Shown here in pieces: positions 49,402-53,646 of a stretch of 64,000 bases of DNA. The position numbers and the translations under genes are program-made. The notes beneath the pieces are model-generated. The model searched no databases. It was not told the origin of the DNA and saw only the letters and a list, made by a program, of their open reading frames with translations. Numbering within the stretch: the stretch's first letter is position 1; every line of letters starts with the position of its first letter. Source of the DNA: an uncultured Opitutia bacterium (GTDB lineage Bacteria; Verrucomicrobiota; Verrucomicrobiia; Opitutales; Opitutaceae); NCBI GenBank assembly GCA_903825285.1, contig CAIJZY010000016.1:1-64000 (forward strand). The letters run 5' to 3'.

Positions 49402-50598
49402 ATGCCCTACATCGAAGACCGCACGACCTGGTTTCAGGGCCAGGGGCATTGGCAGCACGTCCCGGCGAGCGACTGGAACAGCTGGACCTGGCAGCTGCAG
49501 AACCGGATTACCTCGGTGGCCCAGCTGGAGCAGTTCATGACGCTCACGCCCGACGAGAAGGCCGGGTGCGATTTTGCTGACAAGAAGCTCTCGCTGGCGA
49601 TCACGCCGTATTTTTTCAACCTGATCGACCGAAACGATCCCAACTGCCCAATCCGCAAGCAGGTTATCCCGCGGGTGGGGGAGCGGCAGCTCTCGCAGGA
49701 GGAGCAGCTCGACTCGCTGGGTGAGGATGAGCATTCGCCGGTGCCGGGATTGGTGCACCGCTATCCCGACCGCGTGCTCTTCCTCGTGACCGACCGGTGC
49801 GCGGCCTACTGCCGCTACTGCACGCGGAGCCGGCTGGTGTCGAACGCCCAGGACTACAATTTCCACCCGGAGTACGAGCAGGCGCTGCGCTACATCGAGT
49901 CACACACCGAGGTGCGCGACGTGCTGCTGTCCGGCGGCGACCCGCTGCTGCTCTCGGACAAGAAAATCGAGCACCTGCTGGCGCGGCTGCGCGCGATCAA
50001 GCACGTCGAGTTCATCCGCATCGGCTCGCGCATCCCCGTGTTCCTGCCGCAGCGCATCACGCCCGAACTGTGCGAGGTTTTCCGGAAGTACGGCCCGATC
50101 TGGATGAGCATCCATGTGAACCATCCGAAGGAGGCGACGCAGGATCTGAAGGACGCGTGCGACCGCCTCTCGTTCGCCGGCGTGCCGCTCGGCAACCAGA
50201 GCGTGCTGCTCCGGGGCGTGAACGACGACGCCGACGTGATGAAAGCACTCGTGCACCGGCTGCTACGGATGCGCGTGCGGCCGTATTACCTCTACCAGAT
50301 GGACCTCATCACGGGCGGCGCGCACTTCAAGGCCGACGTCCGCAAGGGGATCGAGATCATCCGCGCCCTCCGCGGCCACACCACCGGCTATGCGGTGCCG
50401 CAGTACGTCATCGACGCGCCCGGCGGCGGCGGCAAGGTGCCGATCAACCCGGAATACGTCGAACAGATCACCGACGACGAGGTCATTTTCCGCAATTACG
50501 AGGGCACCCTTTTCCGCTATCCCCTGAAGAGCACGCCGGTGCCCGACAAGACCTCTGCCGACGTCCCGCACCCCCACGGGCATCCTGTTACGCATTGA
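49402..50598 (+). CDS. kamA: Lysine 2,3-aminomutase (radical SAM, KamA-like)
   Basis: 398 aa. The radical-SAM cluster motif is C133-x3-C137-x2-C140 in DRCAAYCRYCTR. PLP-binding Lys345 lies in DAPGGGGK, and both Asp residues that hold the lysine side chain in clostridial KamA appear conserved: Asp301 in LYQMDLITG and Asp338 in VIDAPGGGG. This favours a true aminomutase on lysine over the shorter EpmB type. It converts L-lysine to beta-lysine, used for osmolyte synthesis, lysine breakdown or EF-P modification. No other lysine gene is adjacent. The C-terminal tail (HPHGHPVTH) is His-rich. Downstream lie 708 bp without protein genes (small RNAs and a riboswitch). Confidence 0.9.
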   Translation: MPYIEDRTTWFQGQGHWQHVPASDWNSWTWQLQNRITSVAQLEQFMTLTPDEKAGCDFADKKLSLAITPYFFNLIDRNDPNCPIRKQVIPRVGERQLSQEEQLDSLGEDEHSPVPGLVHRYPDRVLFLVTDRCAAYCRYCTRSRLVSNAQDYNFHPEYEQALRYIESHTEVRDVLLSGGDPLLLSDKKIEHLLARLRAIKHVEFIRIGSRIPVFLPQRITPELCEVFRKYGPIWMSIHVNHPKEATQDLKDACDRLSFAGVPLGNQSVLLRGVNDDADVMKALVHRLLRMRVRPYYLYQMDLITGGAHFKADVRKGIEIIRALRGHTTGYAVPQYVIDAPGGGGKVPINPEYVEQITDDEVIFRNYEGTLFRYPLKSTPVPDKTSADVPHPHGHPVTH

Positions 50599-50763
50599 GG
50601 CGGCCGATGGTCGGGTAAGGCTTCCGTTGGGGCTGAATCAGTCCGACGGACTGCGATTCATGTCCCGGGAGAGGGCATTTCCAGCGGCCGAATGCTTTTA
50701 TAATATTCAGATAAACAGCGGGATATGGGTGCTATATTGGGCCGCGAGAAATCAGGACTTTTT

Positions 50764-50793
50764 TTGAGCATTTTCCGGCGGGGTTCGTCTATC
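50764..50793 (+). promoter_or_regulatory. Promoter of small-RNA unit 1
   Basis: -35 TTGAGC, 18-bp spacer, -10-like TCTATC. The same layout (TTGAAC, 18 bp, TCTACC) occurs before unit 2 at 50922-50951. Conservation extends to the T-run before the -35 and a CCGG in the spacer, which supports function. The 165 bp between kamA and this site show no other signal. Confidence 0.55.
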
Positions 50794-50798
50794 CCAGT

Positions 50799-50883
50799 GT
50801 AGTCAGCATTGTTTGTAGTTCTTACGGTTTGCTTGGTGTTAGGTCACTCGGGCCGCCTCAATCTTGAGGCGGCCCTTGTTATT
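50799..50883 (+). ncRNA. Predicted small RNA, unit 1 of a tandem pair
   Basis: A ~85-nt transcript is predicted, starting near GTGTAGTCAGC and ending at a strong intrinsic terminator. A 35-nt core (50812-50846, beginning TTTGTAGTTC and ending GTGTTAGGTCA) is repeated in unit 2 with a single change. No open reading frame with a ribosome site is present. The core is followed at once by the terminator stem, a layout common in trans-acting base-pairing RNAs. I do not recognise the family; the role is unknown. Confidence 0.65.
50850..50875 (+). terminator. Intrinsic terminator of small-RNA unit 1
   Basis: An 11-bp GC-rich stem, GGGCCGCCTCA paired with TGAGGCGGCCC around the loop ATCT, then TTGTTATT. 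The stem is perfect; the T-tract is interrupted. Confidence 0.75.
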
Positions 50884-50921
50884 GGAGGGGACGGGAAGGT
50901 TCTGGCGGTCGAAATTCTTTT

Positions 50922-50951
50922 TTGAACGTTTTCGCCGGTCCCGCATCTACC
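50922..50951 (+). promoter_or_regulatory. Promoter of small-RNA unit 2
   Basis: -35 TTGAAC, 18-bp spacer, -10-like TCTACC, aligned base for base with the promoter of unit 1 (both preceded by CTTTTTTGA-like T-runs and followed by GTGTAGTCA). Confidence 0.55.
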
Positions 50952-50954
50952 TCT

Positions 50955-51056
50955 GTGTAGTCACCATCGTCCTGGTAAGACGATGAAAGTTTGTAGTTCA
51001 TACGGTTTGCTTGGTGTTAGGTCATAAAAGCCGCCCTCAAAAGGGGCGGTTTTTAT
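50955..51056 (+). ncRNA. Predicted small RNA, unit 2 of a tandem pair, with an extra hairpin
   Basis: A ~100-nt transcript beginning GTGTAGTCACC. The core at 50990-51024 equals that of unit 1 except for one base (A for T at core position 11). Compared with unit 1 it carries an insert forming a 7-bp hairpin, CATCGTC-CTGGTAA-GACGATG (50965-50985), just before the core. The terminator differs in sequence but sits at the same distance after the core. Conservation of core and promoter with divergent stems is what a paralogous pair of regulatory RNAs would show. Confidence 0.65.
51031..51056 (+). terminator. Intrinsic terminator of small-RNA unit 2
   Basis: CCGCCC pairs with GGGCGG around TCAAAAG; flanking AAAAG and TTTTTAT extend the stem, and TTTTTATGTTTT supplies the T-tract. 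It isolates the small RNAs from the riboswitch downstream. Confidence 0.7.
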
Positions 51057-51129
51057 GTTTTCGGCGGGGCGGCATGACGCGTTCAGGCGAACTTTCGCTT
51101 GCGCTGCCGTCGAGGCGGCATTTGCTGCG

Positions 51130-51231
51130 GCTGTCCTGTAGGGGTGCCCTCCGCGGAGGGCTGAGATTGCGGCACGCTCGGCTGCTCGACCCTTCGAACC
51201 TGAAACGGATCATACCGGCGAAGGAAACAGC
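51130..51231 (+). promoter_or_regulatory. TPP (thiamine pyrophosphate) riboswitch
   Basis: The THI-element consensus is clear: GGGGTGCCC (51141-51149), GGGCTGAGA (51158-51166), then ACCCTTCGAACCTGAAACGG and ATCATACCGGCGAAGGAA. P1 can form between GCTGT (51130-51134) and ACAGC (51227-51231). It lies 75 bp before the ATG of a TonB-dependent receptor. After the aptamer a GGGGCG-CGCAC-CGCCCC hairpin (51251-51267) without a T-run is seen, so control may act on translation or on an atypical terminator. Expression of the receptor should fall when TPP is plentiful. Confidence 0.95.
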
Positions 51232-51306
51232 AGGCGTCGCGAGCCCACGGGGGCGCGCACCGCCCCTTCCGCCGGGAGTTCGGATTGGGTCGGGCCAACC
51301 ACCACC

Positions 51307-53646
51307 ATGAAACTCCCGCGCCGCCTTCTCCTCCTCGCCACCTCGCCCTGGCTGGTTCACGCCCAGACCGTGCCCGGGGTCACGACGCTCTCGCCCTACA
51401 TCGTCACCGGCCTCCCGGTGGAGCAATCCGTCAACCCGCTCACGCGCCAGACCTCGTCCGTGATGGGCGATGCCCGCGACCCGCTCGACACGCCGCGCGG
51501 CGCCAGCACGATCACGACCGCGCTCTTCAACGAGCGCCAGATCCACGGCGTGCAGGAAATCCTGCCCTATTCGCCCGGCGCCTACGTGGGCGCGGCCTAC
51601 GGCAACATCACGACGCCCAACCTGCGCGGTGACCTCGCCGAGACCTACCTCAACGGCCAGCGGCTGAGCTATAATTACTACGGGTACTTCCCCTCGTTCA
51701 ACGGCGTCGAGGCCGTGGACCTCGTGCGCGGCCCGGGCTCGGCGGTCTTCGGCGCCGGCTATTTCACGGGCGGCTACGTCAACTATGTCACCAAGCAGCC
51801 GAAGTTCTCGGGCCCCGAGACGACCCTCACGACGCGCTTCGGCACCTGGGCGCCGGGACAGGTTTCCTTCCTCAACGCCTCCGTGCAGCTCGACACCACC
51901 GCGCCCGTCAGCGACCGCCTCGCCTGGCGGCTGAGCTACGAGGCGAAGGGGGGCGACACGTTTTTCCGGAAGAACGACGCCCGCGATGACCGCCAGGATC
52001 TCTTCCTGGCCGTCGCCTGGCATCCCGGCCCAGCCACCACGATCGACGCGAGCGTGCAGTATTTCTGGCAGGACGCGCCCGAGACCCTCGGCGTCAACCG
52101 CGTCAACCAGGACCTGATCTGGCACGCCCGCTATTCCACCGGCGCCTCGGCGGACATGGCGCCGTTCCCGGGCCCGATTCCCGCGACGTCGGCCGTCAAC
52201 CTGCCATGGGAGGCGACGCTGTTCTCGCGCGGCGACTTCTCCAACGCCGGCGTGGCCCGCGCGCAGGTCATCGCCACGCACGTGGTCTCGCCCTCGCTCA
52301 CGGTCGTGAACCGCACGCTGTTCGAGTACGTTGACCGCCGCCGCTTCCAGCAGTTCGAGTACGCCGAGTACGTCACCCAGCACACGTTCGAGAACCGCAC
52401 GGAGTTTCACGCGGACTGGAGCGACGCGGCCGTGCCGCAGAGCGTGGTCGCCGGCGTCGCGATCCGCTACGCGCACACGCTGAGCTACGAGAACTACTTC
52501 AACGAATACATCTACAACTTCGACCTCACCGATCCCTCCCGGGTCTTCAACGAGGCGGAGCAGTATCCCAACTCGTACTATCCCGGTGAGACGGGCCCCG
52601 GTGGCCGGACGTTTTTCCCGGCGGCCTGGGGCAGTCCCGAGACCGACAACAGCACGCTCTGGAATCCTTCCGTCTTCTGGCAGCATGAATTCCACCTGAC
52701 GCCCCGCCTGGCCCTGATCGCCGGGCTGCGCGGCGACCTGTACATTGGCGACGCGCGCGATCCGCTGGCTCCCGCGGGCACCACGCCATGGCACGATCAC
52801 GCGACGGTCGGCGCGTTTTCGCCGACGGCGAACCTCATCTATCGTCCGACCGCGCGGGCATCCTTCTACGCGACCTACCAGCGCATCCGCGCCGTGACGG
52901 GCAACCTCGCCGGCGGCGGCCTCATCCTCAGCGACCGCGGCGACGGCACCGGGGCGCTCAACCGCGACGATTTCCGCAACCGTAGTGACCTCGCGGAGGT
53001 CGGCCTGAAATACTCGCTGCTGGACCACCGGCTCTATGCCGCCGCGGCGCTGTTCGACCAGCGCCGGACCAAGATCGGGCTCGGCGGCGAGCACAGCGAC
53101 ATCCTGCTCCGCGGCCTGGAGCTGGAAGCGGTCTACCAGCCCGATGTCCGGTTCAACGCCACGGCCAACGCGACTTTCCAGGACGGGCATTACGTGGACT
53201 CGTCGCCATTCCAGTTCGGCGGCCGCTCGATCTACTCCGCGTATGCCCTCGGCCGCGGCCCCGGCGGACTCGGCACCGGCACGGCGGCCTACGATCCGTA
53301 TGCGGACCAGGTGCCCGCGGGCGACTGGCCCCTGATCGGGCTGTCCAAGGTCATGCTCAACGGCAGCGTGCGTTACCGTTTTGAAAGCGGTTTCGGCGCG
53401 GGTCTCAATGTCCGCTGGCAGAGCTGGCAGCGCGGCAACCTCGACAACGAGTGGCACCTCCCGGCGCAGTACACGCTCAACGGCGCGCTGTTCTACGAGG
53501 CCCGGCGCTGGTCGGCGAACCTCGATTTCCTGAACCTCACGGACCAGCGCAACTGGATTCACAACGGCGACGCCTACACCGCGAGCGAGCTGATCTTCCC
53601 CGAGCTGCCATTTCGCGTGGAGGGCTACGTGAAGATCAAGTTCTGA
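51307..53646 (+). CDS. TonB-dependent outer-membrane receptor under TPP-riboswitch control (putative thiamine/precursor receptor)
   Basis: 779 aa from ATG 51307. Signal peptide 1-19 (LLLLATSPWLVHAQ). Plug domain ~45-160 (TITTALFNERQIHGVQEIL, TPNLRGDLAETYLNGQRL, VDLVRGPGSAVFGAG), then a 22-strand-type barrel with alternating aromatic strands and a terminal ...RVEGYVKIKF ending in Phe, as required for BAM assembly. The N-terminal Ton box is not certain; LSPYIVTGLPVEQ is a candidate. The upstream TPP riboswitch implies that the substrate is thiamine, its phosphates or a pyrimidine/thiazole precursor. No inner-membrane thiamine transporter or thi gene is adjacent. Two chains of small-RNA terminators upstream isolate it as its own unit. 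Confidence 0.92.
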   Translation: MKLPRRLLLLATSPWLVHAQTVPGVTTLSPYIVTGLPVEQSVNPLTRQTSSVMGDARDPLDTPRGASTITTALFNERQIHGVQEILPYSPGAYVGAAYGNITTPNLRGDLAETYLNGQRLSYNYYGYFPSFNGVEAVDLVRGPGSAVFGAGYFTGGYVNYVTKQPKFSGPETTLTTRFGTWAPGQVSFLNASVQLDTTAPVSDRLAWRLSYEAKGGDTFFRKNDARDDRQDLFLAVAWHPGPATTIDASVQYFWQDAPETLGVNRVNQDLIWHARYSTGASADMAPFPGPIPATSAVNLPWEATLFSRGDFSNAGVARAQVIATHVVSPSLTVVNRTLFEYVDRRRFQQFEYAEYVTQHTFENRTEFHADWSDAAVPQSVVAGVAIRYAHTLSYENYFNEYIYNFDLTDPSRVFNEAEQYPNSYYPGETGPGGRTFFPAAWGSPETDNSTLWNPSVFWQHEFHLTPRLALIAGLRGDLYIGDARDPLAPAGTTPWHDHATVGAFSPTANLIYRPTARASFYATYQRIRAVTGNLAGGGLILSDRGDGTGALNRDDFRNRSDLAEVGLKYSLLDHRLYAAAALFDQRRTKIGLGGEHSDILLRGLELEAVYQPDVRFNATANATFQDGHYVDSSPFQFGGRSIYSAYALGRGPGGLGTGTAAYDPYADQVPAGDWPLIGLSKVMLNGSVRYRFESGFGAGLNVRWQSWQRGNLDNEWHLPAQYTLNGALFYEARRWSANLDFLNLTDQRNWIHNGDAYTASELIFPELPFRVEGYVKIKF

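Follow-up and report, generated by a model that had tools for sequence, protein, structure and literature searches.

A predicted small-RNA family of Opitutaceae with an ECF-like promoter and a near-invariant G/U-rich core

Introduction

The window analysed here, a stretch of 64,000 nucleotides from an uncultured Opitutia bacterium, contains two small-RNA-like units in tandem, with cores 178 nt apart, between a kamA-family gene and a TPP riboswitch. Such a locus raises the question of whether the two units are independent small-RNA genes, whether they belong to a family that extends beyond a single genome, and what the sequence conserved at their centre does. According to one review, the whole Planctomycetes-Verrucomicrobia-Chlamydiae group has 8 annotated small RNAs (PMC9029176). 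A well-marked family whose promoter, core and terminator can be defined, from a lineage in which the search for Hfq was negative, would offer a handle on possible Hfq-free small-RNA action in the phylum, on the controlling ECF sigma factor and on the retention of a copy by a phage. The phage copy, the Hfq-less setting and the near-invariant core all add to the interest of the RNA family.

Architecture of the two units

Both tandem units reported in a preliminary description, which was made from the sequence alone, are present at the positions it gave, with all their parts on the + strand. Each unit consists of TGARC-N16-CRTCTA, followed by GTGTAGTCA, a 36-nt core and a G+C-rich hairpin. In unit 1, the putative ECF-like promoter TGAGC-N16-CGTCTA (50765-50791) was recognised by direct reading; its layout is identical to that of the wider set of units, and it matches the strict pattern given below. 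The predicted RNA, with putative ends, covers 50797-50880 and has no 5' hairpin. Its core lies at 50811-50846 by sequence comparison, and its terminator hairpin of 11 pairs at 50850-50875, on the basis of a terminator scan and of helix covariation across the family. In unit 2, the putative ECF-like promoter TGAAC-N16-CATCTA (50923-50949) was likewise identified by direct reading, wider-set layout and the strict pattern. It is followed by a predicted RNA at 50955-51056 (ends likewise putative), which includes a 5' hairpin of 7 bp (50965-50985; covariation, -9.1 kcal/mol alone), the core (50989-51024; sequence comparison) and a terminator hairpin (51024-51056; 14 pairs in folding, and covariation). 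This 14-pair 3' hairpin was not flagged on the + strand by a simple terminator scan, and the 5' hairpin is absent from the minimum-energy fold of the unit (-34.1, versus -33.3 with the hairpin forced). Both units are more stable than their shuffled versions (z = -4.23 for unit 1 and -4.20 for unit 2). The covariance model, whose underlying alignment includes both units, scored unit 1 at 88.3 bits (50796-50883; E 5.8e-17) and unit 2 at 111.4 bits (50954-51060).

Most of what the preliminary description had said about these parts was upheld. The sequence GTGTAGTCA stands at both unit starts, the additional 7-bp hairpin precedes the core of unit 2, and the two cores differ at one position, although the shared core is 36 nt long and not 35 nt. 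Each unit has its own terminator, as had been proposed, but the two terminators are not unrelated, as both align to one covarying helix. A chance likeness of the tandem cores is excluded: allowing up to 3 mismatches, a 23-nt piece of the core is present nowhere else in the genome, and units of this architecture were also found in other genera.

The kamA-family radical SAM gene upstream (49402-50598, +) matches TIGR00238 with 354.1 bits, against a cut-off of 199.2; it is a conserved neighbour and is not claimed as part of the RNA. Downstream, a TPP riboswitch (51130-51243, +; 65.3 bits) precedes the gene of a TonB-dependent receptor (51307-53646), whose best match, TIGR01783 with 82.7 bits, is under the cut-off. 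Given this riboswitch, the receptor may import thiamine or a precursor.

Compensatory changes in the flanking helices

The structural analysis was based on an alignment of 72 of 98 distinct units, hand-picked for spread and clear ends. The structure model comprises the 5' hairpin and the terminator and was drawn from the aligned sequences themselves. In these two helices 90.2% of cells pair, and compensatory changes on both sides occur in 16 of 17 pairs, including 6 of the 7 pairs of the 5' hairpin. Double changes were counted in 210 cells, versus 58.6 in shuffles, a control that relatedness of the sequences may inflate. Versions with partners slid by one to three columns preserve the relatedness, and in them most of the covariation is gone (20 to 72 cells). 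The compensatory changes in nearly all pairs indicate that the product is RNA.

Folding also suggested hairpins inside the core; these were rejected, as they show no compensatory change. The core is only partly unpaired in folding (mean 0.46 over 97 units), a point against the pairing model discussed below. Covarying flanks together with the lack of covariation inside the core suggest that the core is kept for its sequence and the flanks for their shape. Of the features that mark an independent small-RNA gene, those readable from sequence, namely its own promoter, its own terminator and compensatory helix changes, were found.

Promoter

A -35/-10 promoter layout with 18-bp spacing had been proposed for both units. 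This part of the preliminary description had to be given up: a scan for sigma-70-like promoters returned 0 at 50500-51350 (shuffle mean 0.4), and the conserved elements are instead TGARC-N16-CRTCTA. Among the 98 units, the spacer from T[GC]A[AG]C to C[GA]TC was found by script to be N16 in 87 and N17 in 8 (95 together), while the three remaining units, inspected by eye, have N17, N16, and N16 with CGTTTA. The consensus is T[GC]A[AG]C-N16/17-C[GA]TCTA. Promoters of ECF (group IV) sigma factors have a GAAC-type -35 and a CGTC-type -10 element, about 16 bp apart. Judged by its motifs, the predicted promoter of the units fits an ECF sigma factor and not a sigma-70-like one.

A strict form of this pattern was searched in 12 genomes of the genus: its 19 matches all belong to these RNAs, and the control had 2. 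With a looser form 40 places were found, of which 20 belong to these RNAs and 20 lie elsewhere. As the control for the looser form gave 25 matches, the pattern is not in excess outside the RNAs. The genome itself has 22 matches to sigma-70 region 2, none of them tied to this promoter.

Distribution in Opitutaceae

The full 36-nt core, searched within the family only and with up to 3 mismatches, was found in 119 of 252 Opitutaceae genomes and 28 of 49 genera. For the 18-nt heart of the core, GGTTTGCTTGGTGTTAGG, searched with at most 1 mismatch, the counts are 174 of the 252 genomes and 32 of the 49 genera, with one match for the reversed control. Genomes with a heart match mostly carry one to three copies, and up to five were counted (in G144). 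One match inside the family (L322, genome G084) has no promoter or hairpin on reading. All 98 units agree at several positions in the 3' half of the core, but similarity to that half was the basis on which they had been gathered.

Searches beyond the family relied on the 18-mer heart or on the covariance model. With strict filters, the model recognised units in 62 of the 372 genomes searched across the order; 61 of these genomes belong to the family, and the lone match outside (G352, 28.9 bits) is without the core on reading. In a draw of genomes from the class, the 18-mer with up to 1 mismatch was found in 27 of 38 family genomes versus 5 of 346 others, and these five matches look like chance, having neither promoter nor subsequent terminator on reading. 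Among named genomes, the exact 18-mer occurs in at least 118 stretches, and 78 of the 80 matches listed carry Verrucomicrobia- or Opitutus-type titles or the names of genera that presumably belong to Opitutaceae. Exact matches in Marinomonas and Flammeovirga look like chance, with neither promoter nor hairpin on reading.

The core is thus not confined to one genome, and the same architecture is present in other genera. The predicted RNA family is spread through Opitutaceae. The proposal that the units are sibling small RNAs, alike in their core and divergent in their structural parts, is supported by this occurrence of the core, by the covariation and by the fixed promoter.

Genomic settings of the units

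Sixty loci, the window and 59 chosen others, were compared for their neighbours. In 48 of them the units are preceded by a kamA gene of the same orientation; among the 12 loci without it, one had 91 nt and one 1203 nt of sequence upstream. A similar TonB receptor lies downstream in 17 of the 60. The position between kamA and the receptor, the meaning of which had been left open, is therefore conserved on the kamA side and less so on the receptor side. The usual form at the kamA locus consists of 5' hairpin, core and terminator. Tandem pairs number 25 among the collected units, with spacings of 152 to 248 nt, and concerted change of tandem cores was not significant in these 25 pairs (within 4.12, between 4.61; permutation p 0.06).

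Copies away from kamA are often shorter, with promoter and core unchanged and mostly without the 5' hairpin. In 24 of 29 dispersed units checked, the loop of the terminator that follows the core contains AGGGGT, and three units are without this motif. Among the neighbours of 17 dispersed copies, none is shared by more than 3 loci. A direct repeat, GTNAM-N6-GTNAM, lies upstream in 7 of 25 dispersed units versus 0 of 98 kamA-type units (background 0.0036 per 140 nt). This repeat resembles a Pho box, hinting at possible phosphate control. In the units concerned (L151, L153, L156, L157, L158, L160 and L168) it has an 11-bp period and stands before the promoter.

A further copy is carried by the viral contig IMGVR_UViG_3300005529_000089 (L297; 3976-4088, minus strand). 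It has a 5' hairpin, a core one base shorter and a 3' hairpin, and the covariance model scored it at 43.5 bits (E 3.8e-8). Two genes on one strand, both without a PHROG match, flank the unit, which stands downstream of the gene for the major head protein; the head protein (phrog_1328) is the sole named match among seven proteins of the contig that were scanned. Within 200 nt before the phage core no ECF-like promoter was found. No second phage with the unit was found: relatives of the head protein led to the same contig, two further viral patterns led to the same contig or to nothing, and a search of a phage collection gave no match. Three other viral contigs with a gapped-pattern match (L307-L309) had no covariance-model match and were rejected. 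A plasmid search gave six short, weak matches.

Comparison with known RNAs

At gathering score, the TPP riboswitch is the one family of Rfam release 15 recognised in the window, and the units match none; their best sub-threshold scores are 22.6 of 55 bits for Thr_leader and 22.3 of 60 bits for RcsR1. Six related loci yielded only a tRNA. This is in line with the earlier statement that no named RNA family has this core. Judged by titles and abstract starts, no published description of the RNA family is among the literature matches listed. By its sequence features, the predicted family is an uncatalogued small-RNA family of a known general kind.

The general kind can be illustrated by several regulators. 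RybB and MicA of enterobacteria are sigma-E-dependent small RNAs with their own ECF-read promoter, a conserved seed at the 5' end, outer-membrane targets, a terminator and a dependence on Hfq. The units resemble them in having an ECF-type promoter of their own, a conserved stretch and a terminator. They differ in that their core is internal and in that a search for Hfq (PF17209) was negative in all 120 family genomes covered, with 5 of 14 control genomes positive. GcvB, which is Hfq-dependent and has a different promoter, shares with the units a G/U-rich conserved linker between hairpins, but the units gave no Rfam match at threshold. An account of GcvB is found in PMC3879156.

Another similar system is that of FopS and GibS of Bacteroides thetaiotaomicron, paralogous small RNAs that occur in several copies, have a seed region in common and are linked to the RRM-type protein RbpB (PMC11697453). 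According to that paper, FopS is about 65-70 nt long, mostly intergenic, present in 14 copies and transcribed from a canonical Bacteroides sigma promoter, and it represses mRNAs of SusC-type transporters. Set beside FopS and GibS as so described, the units are likewise paralogous, short and mostly intergenic, share a conserved region and occur in a genome with an RRM protein. Unlike FopS, they have an ECF-like promoter, and most genomes with a match carry one to three of them.

Possible mode of action

On balance, the reading considered somewhat probable is that the units encode ECF-controlled, Hfq-independent regulatory RNAs, in which the G/U-rich core pairs with mRNAs and the flanks stabilise and terminate the transcript. 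The window would then hold two small-RNA genes of about 85 and 100 nt, whose ECF-type promoters and intrinsic terminators are recognised by pattern and covariation and from which transcription is predicted. The core would be the working part, and stability and termination would be provided by 5' hairpin and terminator. A stress that releases the ECF sigma factor would lead to accumulation of the RNAs. Pairing of the core, without Hfq, to C/A-rich sequence close to the start of several mRNAs would then lower their translation. A TonB-receptor mRNA may be one of the targets, and the single RRM protein of the genome (contig 55, 58745-58954) may be a helper.

The composition of the core is compatible with such pairing: 28 of its 36 bases are G or U, which would suit C/A-rich stretches of mRNAs. 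A 17-nt heart, searched in the genome with up to 3 mismatches, gave 2 non-self matches versus 2 control matches. One of the two non-self matches, agreeing at 14 of 17 positions, lies on contig 31 (85178-85194; L313 1501-1517), antisense to the start region of a TonB-receptor-like gene with CarboxypepD_reg and TonB Plug domains. In the mRNA this site is C/A-rich and stands before or just after the start codon, the gene start being uncertain, with three competing ATG codons of which the gene caller took the most distant. Shuffled cores paired with the site at least as strongly in 29 of 1000 cases. As a single place noticed afterwards, the site fits the expected kind of target and proves nothing; it is a candidate target and no more than a lead.

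More general tests compared the core with shuffled cores at predicted gene starts. At 403 crudely called starts from mixed loci, the core was equalled or surpassed by 45 to 53 of the 60 shuffles, and at 347 guessed starts of the genome itself by 43 to 55 of 80. At 275 guessed starts of a relative (G105), the two measures based on the strongest starts gave 3 and 5 of 80, and the other two gave 33 and 46 of 80. The window's own TonB receptor ranks 302 of 347 for pairing with the core. Starts of TonB receptors available for a comparison of this receptor type as a whole numbered only 2 in the sample from the genome and none in that from G105. The view that the core is a base-pairing seed, put forward in the preliminary description, did not gain from these tests: heart matches equal the control, and the start tests are negative in the genome and in mixed loci, with a slight excess in G105. 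With mostly negative general tests and one site, the pairing of the core with mRNAs is put at about an even chance, and protein binding becomes the main rival; the TonB-receptor site left these odds as they were.

According to this rival, the core is a binding site for a protein that the RNAs titrate or carry, as CsrB- or 6S-type RNAs do. Such a role is considered possible, though well short of probable. The invariant stretch is long and little changed, and near invariance over about 19 nt is long for a seed. The core is kept in three settings, namely the kamA-locus form, the dispersed form with other flanks and the phage, no general start-site preference was found in the genome, and one RRM protein is at hand. 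Nevertheless, this explanation names no binding protein, and genomes mostly have one to three copies with one core each, unlike CsrB-type sponges, which carry many protein sites.

A more elaborate possibility, and a rather doubtful one, is a lineage-specific system without Hfq in which one protein, perhaps the RRM protein, binds the core of every copy, an ECF sigma factor acts as switch under stress of the envelope or of another kind, TonB-receptor mRNAs are among the targets, and the phage copy, placed among head genes, feeds or soaks up the system late in infection. A phage-borne small RNA that engages a small-RNA circuit of the host is known from AgvB, which is reported to imitate the mRNA targets of the host small RNA GcvB (PMC12197685). 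Unlike that target mimic, the phage element here resembles the host small RNA itself.

That the units are not independent small RNAs but leader or 3'-end parts of mRNAs, that is, cis elements or processing sites of their neighbours, is unlikely. The frequent kamA gene upstream on the same strand would suit this explanation, as would the phage copy between two same-strand genes and without an ECF-like promoter nearby. However, the units have a conserved promoter and a covarying terminator, the genes downstream vary, and the dispersed copies have no common neighbour. Still less credible is a DNA feature (a repeat, an integration site or a protein-binding site) that happens to resemble an RNA gene: tandem and dispersed repetition of the units would suit it, but both helices show compensatory changes, the order of promoter, core and terminator is fixed, and the dispersed copies share no neighbour suggestive of a mobile element. 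A small protein encoded in the core can practically be dismissed, since the short open frames that cross it are contradicted by a one-base deletion in some copies (L154 and the phage copy L297) and by the lack of a third-base pattern across core positions.

Related units

Nine of the 20 places that the looser promoter pattern marked elsewhere were read individually, and five of them stand before RNA-like units. On contig 46 of the genome (78930-78956, minus strand), such a place precedes a unit in which the core is reduced to its 5' half, GGTTTGTAGTTTCA. This unit (L298, 2344-2426, minus strand) is followed by a terminator and scores 20.9 bits with the covariance model, and a similar unit is present in L299. 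In the dispersed units L324 and L329, the AGGGGT loop lies upstream of the core, in an apparent 5' hairpin and not in the terminator, as if the loop were functional. L303, L305 and L306 share a GGAAC-N16-CGTCTW promoter and a different conserved body, and their terminator loop reads AGGGGT, as in most dispersed units.
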